DNA of 45,863 bases from Deltaproteobacteria bacterium (GTDB lineage: Bacteria; Desulfobacterota; Desulfuromonadia; Desulfuromonadales; BM103): NCBI GenBank assembly GCA_024279915.1, contig JAJRRB010000023.1:1-45863 (forward strand). Reading direction: 5' to 3'. The position numbers and the translations under genes are program-made. The stretch's first letter is position 1. Each line of letters starts with the position of its first letter. Below are positions 24,761-27,148 of the stretch, one piece after another. Under the pieces are notes generated by a model. The model was not told where the DNA came from, did not search any database, and was given only the letters and a program-made list of their open reading frames with translations.

Positions 24761-27148
<2,388 letters not shown>

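Follow-up and report, generated by a model that had tools for sequence, protein, structure and literature searches.

A premature TAA codon in gyrB of a draft Desulfuromonadales genome is probably a consensus error

The gene for DNA gyrase subunit B in the genome studied here is interrupted by an in-frame TAA, which raises the question of whether the organism carries a nonsense codon in an essential gene or whether the codon arose in the draft sequence. The window, i.e., the whole stretch of DNA that was analysed (45,863 bases), is contig G000:C15 of a draft genome, hereafter G000, which comprises 3,831,797 bases in 99 contigs and is 98.45% complete and 2.72% contaminated. The comparison covered 11 genomes of the genus, including G000 and the sister species G010, together with more distant relatives; the genomes of the relatives are also drafts.

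In the window, the genes were arranged in the order dnaA-dnaN-recF-gyrB-gyrA. On the forward strand, gyrB extended from an ATG at position 24761 to a terminal TAA at 27146–27148, and the start and the end were in the same phase. The 5′ part (24761–25288; 176 codons) encoded most of the GHKL ATPase domain. It was followed by the in-frame TAA at 25289–25291, in the context CCT GAT CCG TAA ATT TTC GAA, and by a 3′ part (25292–27145) of 618 codons from stop to stop, so that the gene as it stands does not form a single uninterrupted frame. The gyrA gene, located downstream on the same strand (27244–29748), was intact, and PF00521 matched nowhere else in the genome. A sequence-only reading of this DNA had described the TAA as lying in a frame that is intact on both sides and had placed it in the ATPase domain, and both statements were confirmed. 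The two pieces were in the same phase and were matched by models of gyrase B; in NCBIfam PRK14939.1 the matches were nearly contiguous (profile positions 3–177 and 180–803 of 803). The alignments put the stop at approximately residue 174 of E. coli GyrB, late in the domain. The locus resembles bacterial DNA gyrase subunit B (GyrB; TIGR01059, PRK14939) in the near-contiguous family match of both pieces and in the gene order, and differs from it in a single in-frame TAA that was common to no relative read.

At the position of the stop, 15 of 18 relatives had Glu (7 GAA and 8 GAG), two had Asp, one had Gln, and none had a stop codon. All ten genomes of the genus other than G000 had Glu. No stop was present at this site in any of the 92 non-own rows of a wider alignment (95 rows, 3 of them own), from which 17 minus-strand loci were left out, 9 of them covered among the 18 relatives, and in which the register of rows with indels is uncertain. 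The residue at this position was highly variable outside the family. Of at least 587 named loci, 80 were kept. The best of these came from a Deltaproteobacterium MAG (67%), and one from a Desulfuromonadaceae MAG reached 65%, which makes a Desulfuromonadales-like lineage likely. The earlier statement that relatives have PDPEIF where the stop occurs was correct for the sister species G010, whereas several genomes of the genus had PDAEIF, PDEEIF, or PDHEIF. The proposal that one G-to-T change (GAA to TAA) suffices to produce the stop agreed with the data, as G010 has GAA at the site.

The piece of gyrB downstream of the stop was under purifying selection. In comparison with G010, its dS was 0.606 and its dN was 0.0226, giving a dN/dS of 0.037, and the value for gyrA was 0.042. 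A parsimony reconstruction of the changes in this piece assigned 17 nonsynonymous and 83 synonymous changes to the G000 branch and 15 and 79, respectively, to the G010 branch. The relaxed selection past the break that marks a decaying pseudogene was therefore not observed in this piece, where the branch of G000 was like that of its sister. Since the rest of the gene showed no decay, the break is either very young or not real.

A bacterium that loses GyrB should die, and the presence of a second B subunit had been suggested as one explanation of tolerance. Such a gene was searched for in the assembly: either half of gyrB, PF00204, and a 30-base pattern allowing up to three mismatches were used as probes, and none of them revealed a second gyrB or parE. 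Each half of gyrB, used as a query, led to one place in its own genome. PF00204 had one match per genome in G000 and in each of the ten other genomes of the genus. PF00521 had one match in nine of the 11, again including G000, while G005 had two partial and G009 two full matches. The two full gyrA matches of G009 were located on contigs G009:C101 and G009:C142, one of them adjoining a 3′ fragment of gyrB. The second gyrA is probably that of another strain in that draft, because its contig also carries a gyrB 3′ end. With no second B-subunit match in any of the 11 genomes, gyrase appears from these searches to be the sole type IIA topoisomerase in the genus. Helicobacter pylori is termed a bacterium without topoisomerase IV in the title of a published paper (PMC3325230). 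As no second B subunit was found in G000, a true knockout of its gyrB should be lethal.

The same assembly was scanned for in-frame stops between long open segments. The scan covered the window and 20 further 20-kb stretches of G000 (445,863 bases together) and 298,479 bases of relatives, and the candidates, 66 in G000 and 52 in the relatives, were triaged by eye. Family models were applied to five sites of G000 besides gyrB and to none of the 52 sites of the relatives. At three of the five, the same family was found on both sides of the stop; among the 52 candidates of the relatives, judged by eye only, no same-family break was seen. The three sites were a TAG in a nuoG/formate-dehydrogenase-like gene (L174:9637; G000:C75:189637), a TAG in a gene for a Na/H exchanger (antiporter) with CBS domains (L173:8059; G000:C75:168059), and a TGA in a gene for a MocR-type regulator (L180:10420; G000:C33:70420). 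In the relatives, the nuoG-like site was occupied by a sense codon in 16 of 16 rows (7 Gln, 5 Asn, 2 Lys, 1 His, and 1 Arg), the antiporter site by a sense codon in all 17 rows that cover it (14 Gln, 1 Ile, 1 Leu, and 1 Ala; one further row did not cover the site), and the MocR site by Gly in 10 of 10 rows. Full-length open frames of the relatives comprised 825–850, 577–621, and 476–544 amino acids for the nuoG-like, antiporter, and MocR genes, respectively. Shorter frames occurred in relatives too, with fragments in G005, G008, G009, and G010, the antiporter frame of G009 being 336 amino acids long. The MocR match of G013 (L241; G013:C245:4415–5374), a draft with 8% contamination, also had one internal TGA.

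A further break in G000 is probable at an in-frame TAA in a long gene of SBBP beta-propeller repeats (L181:17867; G000:C33:97867). The repeat was present on both sides of this codon, and the gene had a match in only one of 22 relatives, which ended short of the stop. At L177:12741, a TAG separated a Wzy_C segment from a TPR segment in one frame; it is either a gene boundary or another break. In addition to the stops, one-base frame breaks were found in two genes, which we take from their protein sequences to be hemC-like and nuoN-like. The break in the hemC-like gene (L167:12672; 95.7 and 90.1% identity) was supported by G001 only, and that in the nuoN-like gene (L174:18360) by G001, G002, and G003. 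At the latter, G000 had a run of five A, as opposed to six A in G002 and G003. A scan that used codon usage to find breaks (25 candidates) was insensitive and missed gyrB itself, and one raw list of breaks, consisting mostly of antisense ORFs, was left out of the counts.

Breaks were also compared across genomes by aligning the non-overlapping ORFs of each genome to the other genomes. This read-across comparison yielded 11 raw stop sites in G000 and, over ten relatives, 31. Most of them rested on the ORF of one genome and have the appearance of antisense or shadow ORFs. Sites were kept if at least two other genomes supported them and the first-listed identity was at least 75%. Three sites then remained in G000 (gyrB, nuoG-like, and antiporter; 116,849 aligned bases) and none in the ten relatives (401,318 aligned bases), a comparison biased by a filter set after the rows were seen, by control regions some of which were picked for synteny with known stops, and by the preselection of gyrB. 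Because of the post hoc filter and the synteny-chosen controls, no P value is given. Some alignments of dnaA, recF, and gyrA of the relatives also showed stops, none of them among the filtered sites. Raw frame breaks numbered three in G000 and three in the relatives, the latter at 60–67% identity on at least one side. One frame break of G000, at L174:4531, rested on a single ORF of G002 (88 and 72% identity) that also crossed stops in G001 and G003, and is probably due to a shadow ORF.

Amino acid changes private to one genome at otherwise invariant sites were counted as well. There were 30 among 2759 sites in G000 and 10 among 1929 in G010, and the remaining genomes of the genus ranged from 3 among 1789 to 65 among 2680. 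Since the count for G000 was within the range of the other genomes, there was no clear excess of errors in it, and this measure is neutral. An oxidative-damage signature, in which only G-to-T or C-to-A changes occur, was considered and dropped, as the codon of the sister species is CAG in both the nuoG-like and the antiporter gene, which corresponds to C-to-T changes. C-to-A accounted for 6 of the 28 single private changes in G000, and the share was similar in the relatives.

Taken together, the TAA in gyrB is most likely an artefact, i.e., a base-call or assembly error. False gene breaks caused by consensus base errors occur in draft and metagenome-derived genomes, and G000 resembles such cases in its isolated substitutions to stop codons, in the one-base indels in conserved genes, and in a gyrB that shows no decay. 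The sequence-only reading had listed an error, a real nonsense mutation offset by suppression or by a second gyrB, and programmed read-through without ranking them. An error is favoured here because gyrB is not the only conserved gene of this assembly to be interrupted by an isolated stop or a one-base frame break; of the remaining options, neither a second gyrB nor a suppressor tRNA was found, and the stop was not common to the relatives. The breaks affect a sole-copy gyrB and the nuoG-, nuoN-, and hemC-like genes and involve all types of stop codons as well as indels, and consensus errors therefore fit them better than suppression, recoding, or a split gyrase. A wrong consensus base, introduced by sequencing, by low coverage, or by mixed-strain assembly, would have created the TAA. 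The gyrB of the organism would then most likely have an ordinary sense codon at this site, like that of the sister species, and a normal gyrase B would most likely be made. The other isolated breaks in the assembly would probably also be errors rather than real mutations.

The main rival to a consensus error is a real and very recent nonsense mutation, carried by the cells that were sampled or, if the population was mixed, by one of its strains, and taken into the consensus by the assembler, with its carriers dying or in the minority. A very young change is consistent with the lack of decay past the stop, and the single G-to-T step from GAA would be enough to produce it. However, no type IIA B subunit other than that of gyrB was found, and cells with the mutation should therefore be lost; moreover, a single mutation leaves the several other broken conserved genes of the same assembly unexplained. 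A mutator phenotype through the loss of MutS was not indicated either, as the frames of both MutS-family matches were open (884 and 808 amino acids). We therefore consider a recent mutation unlikely, though it is the strongest of the alternatives to a consensus error.

Far less probable is a TAA that is read through or suppressed, so that full-length GyrB is made from the gene as it stands. Such a mechanism would be suited by a frame that is intact and selectively maintained on either side of the stop, and by a position at which bacteria have many different amino acids. A suppressor tRNA, proposed earlier, was looked for among the 44 tRNA matches obtained with RF00005 in the genome, with ARAGORN run on loci covering all 44, and no anticodon for TAA, TAG, or TGA was found in this set, which is incomplete in that tRNA-Ile(GAT) and tRNA-Ala(TGC) were not seen. 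The stop was also shared by none of the 18 relatives. Furthermore, TAA ended 23 of 42 window ORFs chosen out of 74 listed, one of them being the gyrB piece in question; with that piece removed, the count was 22 of 41, the end of gyrB itself included. TAA is thus the commonest terminator in the window, which argues against read-through and was the reason for rejecting a change of the genetic code. Finally, the other breaks in the assembly involve TAG, TGA, and indels too, and with all three stop codons involved, no single suppressor explains them.

It is equally hard to believe that the stop is real and fixed, in which case a species with gyrase as its only type IIA topoisomerase would tolerate a TAA in gyrB, the nuoG-like stop, and the hemC- and nuoN-like frame breaks through unusually leaky translation that is blind to the type of stop codon. 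The least credible reading, a split gyrase B whose second polypeptide would start at TTG 25325–25327 (the earliest in-frame restart candidate, 12 codons past the stop, leaving 607 amino acids) or at ATG 25346–25348 (the earliest in-frame ATG, 19 codons past it) and assemble with the first into a working subunit, draws on the presence of these start codons but is opposed by the cut inside the ATPase domain, by the lack of a clear Shine-Dalgarno sequence upstream of either codon as judged by eye, and by the absence of the split from every relative read.

In conclusion, a real stop would challenge our understanding of how an essential gene tolerates a nonsense codon, and, read as biology, it would suggest stop-codon suppression in such a gene. 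The assembly-wide pattern is instead a warning that some conserved genes are probably falsely broken in this draft, and that its single-base "pseudogenes" need read support.
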